Shown: positions 17,822 through 28,679 of the stretch, piece by piece
Layout of the letters: the number at the start of each line of letters is the position of its first letter
Numbering within the stretch: position 1 is the first letter of the stretch
Source: Mediterranea sp. (in: CFB group bacteria)
GTDB taxonomy: Bacteria; Bacteroidota; Bacteroidia; Bacteroidales; Bacteroidaceae
Direction: 5' to 3'
NCBI GenBank assembly: GCA_031261805.1
Contig: JAISIX010000218.1
Location: forward strand, 1-39,041
Length of the DNA: 39,041 nucleotides
Notes under the pieces: model-generated
What the model saw: the letters and a program-made list of their open reading frames with translations, nothing else
Told to the model about the DNA's origin: nothing
Database searches by the model: none
Program-made: the position numbers and the translations under genes

Positions 17822-18313
17822 ATGAAGAAATTGGTACTAATAGGAATGGGAGCATGCTTAGTGCTGGCCTTTTCGTCATGCAAGTCGAGCGAGAGTGCTT
17901 ACAAAAAAGCGTATGAGAAAGCCAAACAACAAGAGTTGGTCGAACCCCAGACAGAAGCACCCGCCGAAGTGACTCCGGTGGCTGTAGCTCCGGCTCCCAA
18001 AGCAGTTGATACCTCCGGCGTACGCCAAGAGAAGGTGACGGTAGTGTCGGGCAATGCCGATGGCCTGAAAGACTTCAGCGTAGTGGCAGGCAGCTTCGGC
18101 GTGAAAGCCAATGCCGAAGGCTTGAAGGATTGGTTGGACGGACAGGGCTACCACTCTGTCATCGCGTTCAATGCCGAAAAAGCCATGTACCGTGTCATCG
18201 TCAGCACCTTTGCCGACAAGACTGAAGCTGCGCAAGCTCGCAACTCATTCAAAGCAAAGTATCCCAACCGCTCGGACTTCCAAGGCGCTTGGCTGCTGTA
18301 CAGAGTGTACTAA
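17822..18313 (+). CDS. SPOR-domain lipoprotein
   Basis: The predicted product has 163 residues. A lipobox-like FSSC places the acylated Cys at 20. Residues about 25-75 form a charged, then Pro/Ala/Val-rich linker. Residues about 80-163 form a SPOR-like domain (DFSVVAGSFGVKANAEGLKD, then MYRVIVSTFADKTEAAQARN), which binds denuded glycan strands at division septa in other bacteria. An outer-membrane-attached, peptidoglycan-binding cell-envelope role is likely. It has its own promoter and is followed 17 nt later by a strong terminator. Confidence 0.85.
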   Translation: MKKLVLIGMGACLVLAFSSCKSSESAYKKAYEKAKQQELVEPQTEAPAEVTPVAVAPAPKAVDTSGVRQEKVTVVSGNADGLKDFSVVAGSFGVKANAEGLKDWLDGQGYHSVIAFNAEKAMYRVIVSTFADKTEAAQARNSFKAKYPNRSDFQGAWLLYRVY

Positions 18314-18330: not shown

Positions 18331-18371
18331 GAAGAGGCCGGCTGCCAAGGAGCAGCCGGCCTCTTCTTGTT
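18331..18371 (+). terminator. Intrinsic terminator of the SPOR lipoprotein gene
   Basis: GAAGAGGCCGGCTGC (18331-18345) pairs perfectly with 18352-18366 around a 6-nt loop, followed by TTGTTT. Confidence 0.85.
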
Positions 18372-18426: not shown

Positions 18427-18470
18427 AATAAAAAAAGTGGGGATGTCATCACTCTGGACGCATCCCCACT
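18427..18470 (-). terminator. Intrinsic terminator of the small-peptide unit
   Basis: Read on the minus strand, AGTGGGGATG (18470-18461) pairs with CATCCCCACT (18445-18436) across a 15-nt loop and runs into TTTTTTATT. It lies 28 nt past the stop codon of the second small peptide gene, which supports real transcription of that unit. Confidence 0.75.
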
Positions 18471-18498: not shown

Positions 18499-18588
18499 TC
18501 AGTCCACCCGGTATCCCCATTTCAGCATCTCGTTGCGGCCTACTTCACTGAGGATCTTCTTCAATAAAGAACTCATTTTCTTTGCCAT
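18499..18588 (-). CDS. 29-residue WGY-motif peptide (second of a related pair)
   Basis: The ATG at 18588 opens a 29-codon frame ending in TGA. The product starts with a basic, probably amphipathic segment (MAKKMSSLLKKILSEV) and ends in VGRNEMLKWGYRVD. VGRNEMLKWGY aligns position by position with IGQSDVSIWGY of the upstream peptide, with conservative changes outside the invariant Gly and WGY. GAGAGAAT precedes the start. The gene lies 64 nt after the first peptide gene and just before a terminator. I do not recognise the family. There is no signal peptide or Gly-Gly leader motif. The function is unknown. Confidence 0.6.
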   Translation of the reverse strand: MAKKMSSLLKKILSEVGRNEMLKWGYRVD

Positions 18589-18652
18589 AATTCTCTCAAC
18601 ATTTTAATTAGTTAATCCTGAAAACTCACGAAGCATTGCTGCTTTCGTCTCA

Positions 18653-18751
18653 CTAAGCGTTCTCTTCGGGAACCACGCGAAGCGTAGTGTACCCCCAGAT
18701 GCTTACATCGGACTGGCCGATTTTTCTAAAGAACTTTTCTAATCGTTTCAT
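18653..18751 (-). CDS. 32-residue WGY-motif peptide (first of a related pair)
   Basis: The ATG at 18751 opens a 32-codon frame ending in TAG. The product begins MKRLEKFFRKIGQSDV, a basic amphipathic-looking segment, continues SIWGYTTLRV and ends VPEENA. GAAAGGATAACAAG upstream gives a plausible ribosome site. It shares its central 11 residues in pattern with the downstream peptide, suggesting tandem duplication. A leader of roughly 55 nt separates it from a possible -7 element. The family is not recognised. A regulatory, membrane-active or modified-peptide role is possible, but no modifying enzyme is adjacent. Confidence 0.6.
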   Translation of the reverse strand: MKRLEKFFRKIGQSDVSIWGYTTLRVVPEENA

Positions 18752-18802
18752 CTTGTTATCCTTTCAAATACATGTTATAAAACACAAAAGCTATGCCTTT
18801 GT

Positions 18803-18810
18803 TCGCAAAG
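18803..18810 (-). promoter_or_regulatory. Possible -7 element for the small-peptide unit
   Basis: Read on the minus strand, TTACTTTG resembles TAnnTTTG and lies about 50 nt before the first peptide start. There is no clear -33 element, so the call is tentative. Confidence 0.35.
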
Positions 18811-18916
18811 TAAGCACTAAGAAGTGAGAAAAACATGCTTTAGAGCATACTTGCAGGACTTTTAGCCCTATTTTATTGGTAATGAAGCCCGTTTGCAGTA
18901 CTATTGTCAGTAGTGC

Positions 18917-18929: not shown

Positions 18930-18984
18930 TAAAAGAACGCGGTGTGTTAAATGCCCACCAAATACCTGTATATCAGAAATATTA

Positions 18985-19043
18985 AGAAGCCCCCCTTGGG
19001 CAGCTCGGAACGATGTGCTTCGAGCTACCCAAGGGGGGCTTCT
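18985..19043 (-). terminator. Long hairpin downstream of pepD
   Basis: AGAAGCCCCCCTTGGG (18985-19000) pairs perfectly with 19028-19043, and the stem extends inward by six further pairs after one mismatch. It starts 18 nt past the pepD stop codon. The sequence after it on the minus strand is only moderately T-rich, so it may stabilise the mRNA as well as terminate. Confidence 0.6.
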
Positions 19044-19060
19044 ATATAACAAGAGATTCC

Positions 19061-20518
19061 TTACTTCTGCGGCGTATGTGTCAATGTGGCCACCAAGAAG
19101 TCGTAGAAACGCTGTACGCTGGGCACGAAAACCCGCTCATCGGGCGAGTGGGGTGAGCGCAACGTTGGTCCGAAGGAAATCATGTCCAAACCGGGGATGA
19201 TGGCACCGATGATGCCGCACTCCAAACCGGCGTGGATGACCTTGACGGCCGGCTCCGTACCAAACTGCTCTTTGTACGATACTTCCATCGCTTTCAAGAT
19301 GGGCGAGTTCACGTCGGGTTGCCAACCGGAATAACCACCGGTCATCTCCACCTTCATGCCTGCCATGGAGAAACACGACTCAAGGCTGGTGGTGAGAAAC
19401 TCCTTCATGCTGTCGCTGGAGCTACGTGCCAATATTTTAATCTCGGCCTTGCCACTCCCTATGCTGATGATAGCGAGGTTGGACGAGGTCTCCACCGTAT
19501 CGGGCACGGTAGGAATCATTCGCATCACGCCATTTTGGCAGGCGAAGATGGCATCCACCAGGTTGTCTTGTATCTCCTCGGGCAGCTCGCCGGTAGGTAG
19601 CGCTACCCGTTCGGCGGTGAAGGTGATGGGTGTCTCGATAGCGTTATACTCTTCGTTGAAGAGGTCTTGGCAGTAGGTCACCAAGCCCAAGAGTTCCTCC
19701 TCGTTCTCTGCGGGAATAGTGAGCACGGCGCTGGCCTCACGTGGGATGGCATTGCGCATGTTGCCGCCTTCCCAGTTGGCAAGGCGTGCCTCGTAAGAGG
19801 CGATAGCTTCGCGCACGAAGCGCACCAACAGCTTGTTGGCATTAGCACGTCCCTCGTTAATCTCCAGTCCGGAATGTCCGCCACGCAGTCCTTTGAGAGA
19901 GACTTTAAGGGCGATGTCGGTAGCTTCGGGTTCCACCTCTTTGTAGCGCAGGGTAGCCGTCACGTCCATACCACCGGCACAGCCGATGTAGAGTTCACCC
20001 TCCTCTTCGGAGTCGAGGTTGAGCAGAATCTCGCCATGCACCGTACCGGGCTTCAGGCCAAAAGCACCGTACATGCCCGTCTCTTCATCCTTGGTGATAA
20101 GCGCCTCCAGCGGACCATGCTTCAGGTCCGTGGCCTCGAGCACAGCCATGATGGCGGCCACGCCCATACCGTTGTCTGCACCCAGCGTCGTACCCTTGGC
20201 ACGCACCCAGTCGCCGTCGATGTATGTCTCAATGGGGTCTTTCTCAAAATCGTGAACAGTATCGTTGTTCTTTTGCGGAACCATGTCGATATGCGCTTGC
20301 AGGATGACGCCTTTGCAGTTCTCCATGCCCGGGGTGGCCGGCTTACGGATAACCACGTTGCCCACTTCGTCGACAAAAGATTCCAAACCGAGGTTTTTGC
20401 CGAAGTTCACCAGAAATTCGGTGGCCTGCTCGATATGGCCTGACGGGCGCGGAATCTGCGTCAGCGAATAGAAATGCTTCCACACCACTTGTGGAGCCAA
20501 TGATTGAATGGTACTCAT
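19061..20518 (-). CDS. pepD: Aminoacyl-histidine dipeptidase (beta-Ala-His dipeptidase)
   Basis: The predicted product has 485 residues when started at MSTIQSLAPQ. A longer frame exists upstream but overlaps the preceding gene. M20-family metal and catalytic motifs are visible: HIDMVPQ with His76 and Asp78, TLGADNGMGVA with the bridging Asp115, and KDEETGMYGAFGL with Glu145/146. LDSEEEGELYIGCAGG follows, as in PepD. The C-terminal half supplies HAGLECGIIGAIIPGLDMIS and GPTLRSPHSPDERV, which hold the last metal ligands. It is a cytoplasmic zinc dipeptidase acting on Xaa-His peptides. It starts 19 nt after the upstream membrane-protein gene, so the two are probably co-transcribed. Confidence 0.92.
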   Translation of the reverse strand: MSTIQSLAPQVVWKHFYSLTQIPRPSGHIEQATEFLVNFGKNLGLESFVDEVGNVVIRKPATPGMENCKGVILQAHIDMVPQKNNDTVHDFEKDPIETYIDGDWVRAKGTTLGADNGMGVAAIMAVLEATDLKHGPLEALITKDEETGMYGAFGLKPGTVHGEILLNLDSEEEGELYIGCAGGMDVTATLRYKEVEPEATDIALKVSLKGLRGGHSGLEINEGRANANKLLVRFVREAIASYEARLANWEGGNMRNAIPREASAVLTIPAENEEELLGLVTYCQDLFNEEYNAIETPITFTAERVALPTGELPEEIQDNLVDAIFACQNGVMRMIPTVPDTVETSSNLAIISIGSGKAEIKILARSSSDSMKEFLTTSLESCFSMAGMKVEMTGGYSGWQPDVNSPILKAMEVSYKEQFGTEPAVKVIHAGLECGIIGAIIPGLDMISFGPTLRSPHSPDERVFVPSVQRFYDFLVATLTHTPQK

Positions 20519-20537
20519 AATATGTATTTTAGATGGT

Positions 20538-21524
20538 TCATTGCCGTGTACGGTTGGCAAGCGGCAAGGCTGCCAATCCATATACGCCCAACAAAACTAC
20601 TAAAAAGGTTTGAACCCCGTGCACAATCAAGGCAAATATTCCAGCCTCCTCTACATTTATCCCATAAAGCATCATCATCGTGATAATGGCCACATGCCAA
20701 GGACCAGCCCCGTTGGGGGTGGGTACGATGACGGCGAAAGTACCTCCCACAAACATCACCAAAGCCGCCATCAGCCCCAGTCCGGAGGTGAAGCCAAAAC
20801 AGTAGAACGTGAAATAGAAGTGCAGGAAGTAGCACGCCCAGATGGCCAAGGTATAGAACAGGAAGAGAGGCAAGCCCTGTACGCCACGCAGCGAAAGTAT
20901 CCCCTCGCGCAGGCTGATAGCGAAACCTTTCACCTTCTCGTAGAAAGAGAACGTCTTGCGCAGGAAGTAGAGCAACAGCAGTATGCCGATGAAGCAACAT
21001 AGCGCCATATAGAACCACACAGAAGAGAACAGGTGGAGCAACGAGGGAATCTTGGTACCCGTCTGGTGCAGGAAGGTGGCGAAGAGAGGGAACTGGAGTA
21101 GCACCGTGACCACCGTCACCAGCAAGATGGTAAGCATATCGACCAGCCGCTCGGTGACCACCGTCCCCAGTGACTGCGCAAAGGAGACCTTGTCGTACTT
21201 CGACAGGATGCCGCAACGACTCACCTCCCCGATGCGGGGAATCACCAAACTGGCGGCATAGGACACGAAGATGGCGTTCACGCAGTTGCTCCGCTTGGGG
21301 TAAGCCCCCAGCGGCTCCAGCATCTGCCTCCAACGCCAGCCTCGAAAGGCTTGCGCCAACACGCCAAACAGCAATGAGAAGAGCATCCAGCCCCAACGGG
21401 TACCATGCAGCAGTGTCTCCCGTACCTGCGAAAAGTCGAAATCGCGATAGACCCAATACAGGATAAAACTTCCCAAAGCGATGGGGAATACCAGCCGAAG
21501 CGATTTCCGTACCACCTTCTTCAT
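20538..21524 (-). CDS. LPG-synthase-TM-like (AglD/UPF0104) membrane protein
   Basis: The predicted product has 328 residues and about eight hydrophobic membrane spans. RGWRWRQMLEPLG, IGEVSRCGILSKYDKVSFAQ and TPNGAGPWHVAI are the conserved patterns of the lysylphosphatidylglycerol-synthase transmembrane / YbhN family. The soluble aminoacyl-transfer domain of true MprF is absent, so lysyl-PG synthesis should not be assumed. Flippase-like roles are known or proposed for relatives. It is the first gene of a likely two-gene unit with pepD and is divergent from rsmA across about 100 nt. Confidence 0.82.
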   Translation of the reverse strand: MKKVVRKSLRLVFPIALGSFILYWVYRDFDFSQVRETLLHGTRWGWMLFSLLFGVLAQAFRGWRWRQMLEPLGAYPKRSNCVNAIFVSYAASLVIPRIGEVSRCGILSKYDKVSFAQSLGTVVTERLVDMLTILLVTVVTVLLQFPLFATFLHQTGTKIPSLLHLFSSVWFYMALCCFIGILLLLYFLRKTFSFYEKVKGFAISLREGILSLRGVQGLPLFLFYTLAIWACYFLHFYFTFYCFGFTSGLGLMAALVMFVGGTFAVIVPTPNGAGPWHVAIITMMMLYGINVEEAGIFALIVHGVQTFLVVLLGVYGLAALPLANRTRQ

Positions 21525-26939: not shown

Positions 26940-28679
26940 ATGAGATTCAATTCTATTTTCAGCATTCTGCTGGGGGCTACGTGTGCCCTTTCGTCTTGCG
27001 ACAAGAACGATAATAACCCTTTAATAAACGACACGGGAGACTCCCAAACCATAACAGTGAACATAACCCAGTCTTATGGAGCCAACACGCTTATATCCCG
27101 TGCCGAATTCGAACAGCCAACCGTAGTCCACAAGGACTTAGGCAATGGCATCTTGCTGGAAGCCGTGATAAAAAGGGATGACCCTACAACAACACGCGCC
27201 ACCGGTCAGATGACAACAGGCGCCAAAGTGTGGGCCATTGTCTACAAAAACCCAACAGGAAACAAAATCGTGTACAGTGTCCAACAAGTAGCCATTACCG
27301 AAAGCAGCGGCGTGCAGTCCATCACAGTCAAAGTTCCCACCTCGGATACTTATGGCGTTTTGTTTATCACCAACAATACAGCCACGGCACCTTCTATCTT
27401 AGGACTATCAGAAGGATACCCCACAACCGGTATAACGCTTAGTGACTATACATGGACGGACAAAAGCCCTACGGAGGACTTGCTCTACTGCTATACCGGT
27501 GAGCTTACAGCTTCGACTACCATCAACTTCCTACACGAGTTTTCGAGAGTCAAGCTGAAGGTAAATAGCGCCGGCCTCTCTTCTACGGCAACCACTACAG
27601 CCTTTGCCGCTACGCTGGATGATAATCCTAATAATGCATCCATAGAAGATTTTACCAGTTTTGCAAACTTTAGTCCCAGTACGGCTTATAAGACCACCGA
27701 TATTTCGCTGTCGGCCACTGGAGGTAGCGCCGCTACATTAACCTCTACTCAAACGGGCAACTTCATTCCATCGGTCACAGCCGAAGACCATACGATAACG
27801 TTTACAGGACTTTATCTGGATGGAAACACTGCCGCTACCAATAACTATGCCTCCACCCCGTTAACGTTCCCGTTCAACAAAGCCTTGGTAGGAAATACCT
27901 CTTACACCATCACGGTGAACTTGAAGAGTAACACACCAACTTACGGCGTTGGACAATTGTATTGCTGGGATGCATTGTCTCAATATCCTTATGGACAGTA
28001 TCCTTCTGGCGGCCCCGAACAGAACTACCGAGACGCGGCTAATACAACAACTACGGGAACCACAGTATCTAATACCACTGGAATTGCAGATTTCTATAAA
28101 GATGCAGTAAATACGGCCAAAAATTGTCCAACGGCATGTGAAATATGGGCAAGACTGACAGCGAGCAATCCTATTTATTGGATACCCGAAGGTCAGAAAG
28201 CAACTGATTTGCAACCCAAATGGATTGATTACTATGGCACAGTACACTATGGGGGAGGAGTATGGTTGCGCAAGTATAAGAAACCTGATGCCAATGGGAC
28301 AGCATGGAGTTTACCAGATCCAAGCTATCCGTACGGATTAGGTTATAGTTACCATCCAATGTTATCAGGAGGAAAGATTCCAGGCAATATGCCAACCGTC
28401 CCAGCAACTATAACCACATCCGACTTCATTGCCAATTATCAATTCCTACCTGCTTGTGGAGGCGGCACAGATGTCCTGCTTGGGACAGGTTCCCAAGGAG
28501 GCGTAGACGGCATTGGAAAACAAGGGCGTTTTTGGACATCCAGTGCTCCTCAAGGTAGCACAGATGCAGCATGGGAATTAGATTTCCTACACGAAGGGAG
28601 TTCTTCGGACTTCATTGAAATCACCACTCTTGACCGTTGGTATGGAGCCGCTATTTTAGAGGCGACTCACTCAAACTAA
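26940..28679 (+). CDS. Fimbrillin-family lipoprotein with a FISUMP-like C-terminal domain
   Basis: The predicted product has 579 residues. The lipobox LSSC gives acylation at Cys20. Residues about 30-330 form a fimbrillin-like beta domain, with TTTRATGQMTTGAKVWAIVY resembling the first strand after a maturation arginine and NTSYTITVNLKSN closing the domain. The remaining 250 residues are Tyr/Trp/Gly-rich with YCWDALSQYPYGQYPSGG, ACEIWARL and QGRFWTSSAPQGSTDAAWEL, which recall FISUMP or lectin-like adhesive domains. It is therefore probably a surface adhesin or pilus-tip-like protein. Unlike the operon at 1238-10175 it stands alone apart from the small peptide gene. A terminator follows. Confidence 0.75.
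   Translation: MRFNSIFSILLGATCALSSCDKNDNNPLINDTGDSQTITVNITQSYGANTLISRAEFEQPTVVHKDLGNGILLEAVIKRDDPTTTRATGQMTTGAKVWAIVYKNPTGNKIVYSVQQVAITESSGVQSITVKVPTSDTYGVLFITNNTATAPSILGLSEGYPTTGITLSDYTWTDKSPTEDLLYCYTGELTASTTINFLHEFSRVKLKVNSAGLSSTATTTAFAATLDDNPNNASIEDFTSFANFSPSTAYKTTDISLSATGGSAATLTSTQTGNFIPSVTAEDHTITFTGLYLDGNTAATNNYASTPLTFPFNKALVGNTSYTITVNLKSNTPTYGVGQLYCWDALSQYPYGQYPSGGPEQNYRDAANTTTTGTTVSNTTGIADFYKDAVNTAKNCPTACEIWARLTASNPIYWIPEGQKATDLQPKWIDYYGTVHYGGGVWLRKYKKPDANGTAWSLPDPSYPYGLGYSYHPMLSGGKIPGNMPTVPATITTSDFIANYQFLPACGGGTDVLLGTGSQGGVDGIGKQGRFWTSSAPQGSTDAAWELDFLHEGSSSDFIEITTLDRWYGAAILEATHSN

Follow-up and report, generated by a model that had tools for sequence, protein, structure and literature searches.

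The closest described counterparts of the locus reported here are short transcripts that encode a small protein under the control of CRP. In Vibrio cholerae, the 29-aa protein VcdP, which binds citrate synthase, is encoded by the short RNA VcdRP, for which CRP control, a tie to carbon metabolism and a demonstrated base-pairing part have been described (PMC8672173). The 28-aa protein AzuC of Escherichia coli acts through GlpD (PMC10746267) and is described as an inner-membrane small protein encoded on a CRP-controlled dual-function RNA, with a link to carbon metabolism via GlpD (PMC10746267, PMC8672173). In the published account, VcdRP specifies a single peptide and AzuCR a single ORF, and both are repressed by CRP (PMC8672173).

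For Bacteroides, the Crp-like regulator BT4338 (Cur) has been assigned the palindromic motif wwwTATGTTnTAnAACATAwww (PMC3878776; motif also in PMC6989115), and binding of Cur to such a site on carbon limitation was reported for fusA2 (PMC6989115). ChIP and RNA-seq data on Cur list 834 bound places, most of them without expression change; among the 175 genes assigned to bound sites with altered expression, repression was seen for 140 and activation for 35 (PMC6989115). The B. thetaiotaomicron sRNA MasB (BTnc201), described as about 100 nt long and narrowly conserved (PMC10994844), is a small Cur-controlled transcript with a peak on carbon starvation (PMC10994844, PMC6989115). SnoA (BTnc284), another small transcript of Bacteroides with a link to a regulator of the CRP/FNR family, is encoded near hcpR and hcp and is described as a regulatory RNA (PMC13370916).

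Here, a microprotein operon was analysed in a 39,041-nt stretch of Mediterranea sp. DNA (contig JAISIX010000218.1), the whole of which is referred to as the window. The locus resembles VcdRP in its short predicted transcript, a 29-aa protein, predicted control by a CRP-type regulator and a possible tie to carbon metabolism, whereas it encodes two or, in relatives, three related peptides and carries predicted sites for the Bacteroides CRP-like regulator; the number of ORFs likewise sets it apart from AzuCR. Compared with MasB, the transcript predicted here is longer (about 350 nt) and contains conserved ORFs, and SnoA, as a regulatory RNA, is unlike a microprotein locus. Judged from their published descriptions, MasB and SnoA are different loci from the present one. 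If the Cur link holds, this conserved Bacteroides microprotein operon with its locus-specific promoter and predicted Cur sites would be akin to the CRP-controlled small proteins.

Tandem microprotein ORFs and their genomic context

The window encodes a 32-aa microprotein, MKRLEKFFRKIGQSDVSIWGYTTLRVVPEENA, in ORF A (18653-18751, minus strand) and a 29-aa microprotein, MAKKMSSLLKKILSEVGRNEMLKWGYRVD, in ORF B (18499-18588, minus strand), both of which are assigned by homology and codon-level purifying selection. The original prediction of a tandem pair of tiny frames with a common pattern ending in WGY (IGQSDVSIWGY in A, VGRNEMLKWGY in B) was confirmed, both for the frames themselves and for the pattern. 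The best ungapped BLOSUM62 score between A and B is 43, which was reached by one of 5000 shuffled peptide pairs (mean 17.0, sd 3.7), in agreement with the earlier statement that the likeness is hard to obtain by chance; judged from the two peptide sequences alone, it exceeds chance. The locus holds more than had been stated: ORFs A and B belong to a family of paralogous microproteins, of which relatives have a third type, C. Comparison of the family profiles with hhalign gave an E-value of 7.9e-6 (probability 84%) for A and B and of 3.1e-10 (97%) for B and C, and no convincing alignment for A and C (4%). A 26-aa frame over the promoter (18756-18836) was rejected, since its counterparts in relatives vary in length and sequence while the palindromes in the same region are constant.

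The A/B pair lies in a gap of 0.75 kb that is flanked by a dipeptidase gene on the same strand (19061-20581, minus; M20 family by Pfam, annotated as aminoacyl-histidine dipeptidase in the B. finegoldii relative) and a SPOR-domain gene (17822-18313, plus; Pfam) that is convergent to the operon. An intrinsic terminator of the operon, GTGGGGATG...CATCCCCAC followed by seven T, is present at 18430-18469 (minus strand) as originally proposed, its distance from the stop codon of B being 29 nt and not the 28 nt given before. Since the dipeptidase gene is followed by a hairpin of its own, an inverted repeat of 28 bp with 89% complementarity at 18980-19048 that is likely a terminator, the A/B pair with its own terminator most likely forms a separate transcription unit. 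A perfect 15-bp inverted repeat just 3′ of the SPOR-domain gene (18331-18366), which faces the microprotein operon, is likely a terminator as well. The untranslated leader (18752-18771, minus strand) contains a GGATAACAA element that precedes ORF A in most aligned relatives, and the spacer between A and B (18589-18652, minus strand) contains a AGTTTTCAGGATTA element, with similar ones located 5′ of B and C in many relatives.

Of the 40 loci searched, 24 have the dipeptidase gene upstream. In the other 16, among them the nearest relative (L090) and the B. cellulosilyticus group, it was not found there; linkage of the operon to this gene is therefore not strict. In B. finegoldii the downstream gene, coding for an alpha-2-macroglobulin family protein, is co-directional. 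Among ten neighbouring proteins searched against Pfam, nine belong to families without a maturation or dedicated-transporter function and one (26940-28679) had no match; a secondary HlyD_3 match was obtained for one biotin-carrier neighbour. A plasmid record (NZ_OY725943.1) and a bacteriophage record (MT836837.1) carry a stretch with the dipeptidase and microprotein genes. These were the only matches in the plasmid and phage collections, one in each, and both lie on fragments resembling Bacteroides chromosomes; since they carry the same dipeptidase gene they are poor evidence of mobility, and a mobile-element reading was rejected.

Distribution of the family

Single-sequence searches of 61 genomes with E-values up to 10 returned A in 21 and B in 18, many of the matches being weak, and family profiles were built from such matches. 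In 119 congeneric genomes, the profile searches detected A in 58 (E <= 0.1), B in 65 and C in 36 (E <= 0.01). With our stricter cut-offs, A was found in 56, B in 58 and C in 31 of the 119 genomes; at least one type was present in 74, A and B together in 49, and no member in 45, some of which are incomplete. The gene order is A-B or A-B-C, with one type lacking at some loci and an extra A at one. Loci L154, L155 and L156, from three genomes without a detected A or B, have a degenerate peptide of a fourth type (...RIGENEIKA.. or ..HIGENEERALGL..) located 5′ of C.

In named genomes 39 stretches fitted the search pattern, 26 of which were confirmed. They come from B. congonensis, B. acidifaciens, B. 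xylanisolvens, B. finegoldii, B. faecis, B. reticulotermitis, B. gallinarum, B. cutis, B. clarus, B. heparinolyticus, B. cellulosilyticus, B. salyersiae and others. A search of 295 genomes of the order located A in the window's own genome and, within the same family, at two loci of a single further genus (G374). B, searched in 198 genomes of the order, was convincing only in the window's own genome and in G141, a genome from another family (E 2.9e-10); five weaker matches (E 0.026-0.091) were taken as chance. In 395 genomes of the class the family was found only in the window's own genome. From these searches, the family appears to be almost confined to one bacterial family.

The earlier remark that no described family corresponds to these peptides was borne out, as no convincing match was found in Pfam (best E 0.22, taken as chance), PHROGs (best E 0.032, likewise), NCBIfam (no match) or, for the locus, Rfam (no family at threshold). 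Solved structures searched with the B profile gave weak matches, the best of which (E 0.008, a netrin receptor) was taken as chance. No account of the family was found in the main-text literature searched; the words GRNEML, WGYVML, WGYRIEK and MKYYNY gave no hit in literature text, which carries little weight because sequences are seldom printed. For B. thetaiotaomicron, 409 small ORFs have been predicted (PMC7366714). The two most highly translated 29-aa families of a MetaRibo-Seq study are stated to be Clostridiales-specific (PMC7324362) and were rejected as counterparts of A or B.

Coding constraint and peptide properties

Ungapped codon alignments of distinct sequences were analysed for A (29 sequences of 24 codons), B (32 of 23) and C (12 of 28). 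The differences at codon positions 1, 2 and 3 amount to 3115, 2343 and 4997 for A, 4036, 3179 and 6299 for B, and 465, 403 and 870 for C, i.e. an excess at the third position in all three types. For pairs more than 75% alike, pN/pS is 0.27 in A (47 pairs), 0.21 in B (83 pairs) and 0.14 in C (11 pairs); over all pairs, for which synonymous sites are close to saturated, the values are 0.42, 0.41 and 0.32. Conserved homologues with a synonymous bias, the lack of which had been named beforehand as grounds for abandoning the original prediction, were thus found, and the alignments give a clear indication of protein-level purifying selection on A, B and C. Such constraint is observed for these microproteins, and their transcription and translation are predicted.

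Members of the family are about 24-35 aa long and combine a cationic amphipathic N-terminal helix with a glycine (serine or alanine in some A) and an aromatic tail of the type WGY, MGY or KYY. Nine peptides were analysed with regard to charge and amphipathicity. They carry a net charge of +2 to +6, and their N-terminus is cationic and amphipathic, with a hydrophobic moment of 0.66-0.97 for an 11-residue stretch; the moment of the first 16 residues exceeded that of shuffled sequences in seven of the nine (fraction <= 0.017), the other two having fractions of 0.062 and 0.049. In A the tail reads WGY, with WGC in one case; in B it is (W/M/L/Y)GY and in C (K/R/Q)YY. Conservation spans both the helix and the WGY tail. 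AlphaFold models showed one helix each, comprising residues 2-26 of the window's A (mean pLDDT 70) and residues 2-23 of a B member from the named genomes (mean pLDDT 85), with the reservation that helix models of peptides of about 30 aa tell little about a binding partner.

Promoter architecture

The strongest clue to function comes from the promoter, which was absent from the original prediction. Two palindromes of 14 bp each are located upstream of ORF A at a distance of 63 bp from each other: P1 (ATGCTCTAAAGCAT, 18835-18848, minus strand), a predicted Cur (Crp-like) site, and P2 (GTGTTTTATAACAT, 18772-18785, minus strand), a predicted second Cur site. They fit the published Cur palindrome with some degeneracy, P1 being two bases and P2 one base off the core ATGTTnTAnAACAT. 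A -7-type promoter box, TAGCTTTTG (18785-18793, minus strand), which has one extra T compared with TAnnTTTG, lies directly 5′ of P2. By the position of this box, P2 would cover the predicted transcription start and P1 would be centred near -60.

The arrangement recurs in related loci, which were aligned in 42 rows (three duplicating others, and three more being separate loci of one genome). With a loose pattern, both palindromes were found in 31 of the 42 rows, with a spacing of 63 bp in 29 of them and of 62 bp in 2, and the pair was missing in 11; with duplicates removed, both were found in 29 of 39. In 30 of the 31 rows with both palindromes a TAnnTTTG-type box directly precedes P2, and in 15 of the 31 at least one of P1 and P2 has the exact published core, neither of the window's palindromes being exact. 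Within the window, P1 and P2 are the only exact matches to RTGYTNTAWARCAT, a pattern drawn from the window and the related loci themselves, with no match in 100 shuffles. A looser palindrome pattern allowing one mismatch gave 26 matches in the window vs 13 expected. Searches of six congeneric genomes for the palindrome RTGTTNTAWAACAT returned 12 to 22 matches on both strands vs 0 to 5 for the backward control.

The window's genome encodes five cNMP-binding proteins. For one of them, the Crp-family gene L133, a Cur-like palindrome is located 29 bp before the start, and such a palindrome has been reported upstream of BT4338 and its orthologues (PMC3878776). Paired Cur-type palindromes 32-33 bp apart were also observed at two places about 1.2 kb from each other (G026:C1:2803960-2804006 and 2805202-2805247) in a genome without a detected peptide.

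In most rows a further element is present. An FNR-type box, TTGAY-N4-RTCAA, was found in 38 of the 42 rows, starting, where both elements are present, 19 bp (20 bp in one) before P1 and thus usually 5 bp upstream of it; it is missing in four rows, and the window and the nearest relative keep P1 and P2 without it. When the composite of FNR-type box and P1 was searched with one mismatch, 72 sites were obtained in 70 of the 119 genomes, vs none for the backward pattern. Seventy of these sites lie at most 650 bp upstream of a family ORF. Of the 74 genomes with peptides, 68 have the composite; the six that lack it include the window's own. The composite at its fixed spacing is therefore close to diagnostic of the peptide operon. 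At two places (L152 in G004 and L153 in G032), the gene behind it encodes an unrelated protein of 117 aa whose start resembles a signal peptide, and no family peptide was detected in either genome; the L152 protein had no Pfam match and only below-cut-off NCBIfam matches, e.g. to the CpxP family. In another genome (G014), stand-alone copies of A and B (L015, L046) have kept the FNR-type box, and the Cur-type palindromes are gone.

The centres of the FNR-type box and P1 are 19 bp apart, which is tight for two dimers of CRP size, so that exclusion of two CRP/FNR proteins at the composite would be as likely as cooperation. The published HcpR2 motif, GTAACnnnnGTTAC (PMC1274295), does not fit TTGAY-N4-RTCAA, and HcpR was on this ground considered an unlikely regulator at the FNR-type box.

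Alternative explanations

The promoter and the amphipathic peptides can be read in several ways. That the locus is a dual-function or mainly regulatory RNA, with the predicted transcript of about 350 nt base-pairing or binding a protein and the peptides being secondary, is in our view rather improbable, given the codon-level constraint in three ORF types and the lack of an Rfam family at threshold. It would be in line with Cur control of the B. thetaiotaomicron sRNA MasB (PMC10994844), with the TTTTCAGGTATTAG-like spacer element found 5′ of B and C in many loci, and with a hairpin inside ORF A (18707-18721, minus strand), which reads ATCGGC-CAG-TCCGAT with the innermost pair mismatched and ATCGGC-GAA-GCCGAT in relatives. 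In 26 distinct sequences 85.3% of the cells of this 6-bp hairpin are paired, the alanine codon being GCC where it faces Gly and GCT where it faces Ser, except in L014. The covariation score, the number of paired cells and the number of double-change cells each exceeded all 500 shuffles, whereas further pair types were matched by 130 and double-change pairs by 11 of the 500. Because relatedness inflates such counts and the outer pair is broken in 13 of the 26 rows, covariation of the hairpin is suggestive only. The same reading could draw on the region of L097, which folds better than shuffled sequences (z -6.9), and on that of the window, which does so mildly (z -2.4), yet both folding energies include the terminator.

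Cationic amphipathic helices in several tandem paralogues would also suit membrane-active peptides, i.e. a type I toxin or a set resembling phenol-soluble modulins or leaderless bacteriocins that acts on the producer or its neighbours. We regard this as unlikely: acidic residues occur in the peptides and their tail is conserved, the position beside the dipeptidase gene is shared by 24 of the 40 loci, the single plasmid and phage matches are chromosome-like fragments, and no immunity, peptide-export or antitoxin gene was found among the ten neighbouring proteins (a protein-coding comparison). A small regulator or a membrane-associated peptide, both suggested earlier, remains plausible in view of the amphipathic helix. 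The third role once suggested, a precursor of a modified peptide, found no support. Short ORFs with a conserved aromatic tail might suit ribosomally made, modified peptides (RiPPs), yet no maturation enzyme, protease-transporter or dedicated peptide exporter was recognised by Pfam among the ten neighbours, conservation extends over helix and WGY tail alike, and no leader/core pattern is apparent; such an origin is highly improbable. Just as little probability is given to leader or attenuator peptides that control a downstream gene. Tiny ORFs followed by a terminator would be expected of them, whereas here two or three related ORFs are under protein-level constraint, and the convergent orientation of the next gene in the window largely refutes this reading there; the next gene of B. 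finegoldii is co-directional.

Proposed function and implications

The reading preferred here, which we hold with slightly less than even confidence, is that of a Cur-controlled operon of cationic amphipathic microproteins whose target would be either the membrane or a partner protein. According to this model, an operon of two (in many relatives three) related microproteins would be transcribed from its own Bacteroides-type promoter under the control of Cur, the CRP-like carbon-starvation regulator. The most likely mode would be activation from P1 at about -60, as in class I CRP promoters; it is the position of P1 that suggests activation, and AzuCR and VcdRP are repressed by CRP. Cur might also restrain transcription from P2 over the start site, and in most species a second CRP/FNR-family protein may help or compete on the box centred 19 bp upstream of P1. 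Once sugar is exhausted the peptides would be made and might lie on the inner membrane, or dock via the amphipathic helix on a membrane or metabolic protein and adjust the activity of this partner, as AzuC and VcdP do.

A more far-reaching version, which is speculative and on balance doubtful, is that the co-made amphipathic microproteins are dedicated effectors of the Cur response, genus-wide and as yet unnamed, which are gated by the composite promoter to a defined starvation and redox state and whose related peptides may share one target. At such a promoter two different CRP/FNR-family proteins would occupy nearly adjoining sites, with centres 19 bp apart, and Cur would in addition occupy the start site 63 bp away.

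Tandem tiny ORFs of this kind are recognisable from codon constraint and promoter together, and the composite promoter provides a simple DNA signature for finding the operon. Cur governs sugar use and gut colonisation in Bacteroides, and the outputs described for it consist mainly of genes for sugar utilisation, elongation factor EF-G2 and the sRNA MasB (PMC6989115, PMC10994844). If the proposed control is true, the microprotein operon would be an overlooked output of Cur and a player in the starvation response.
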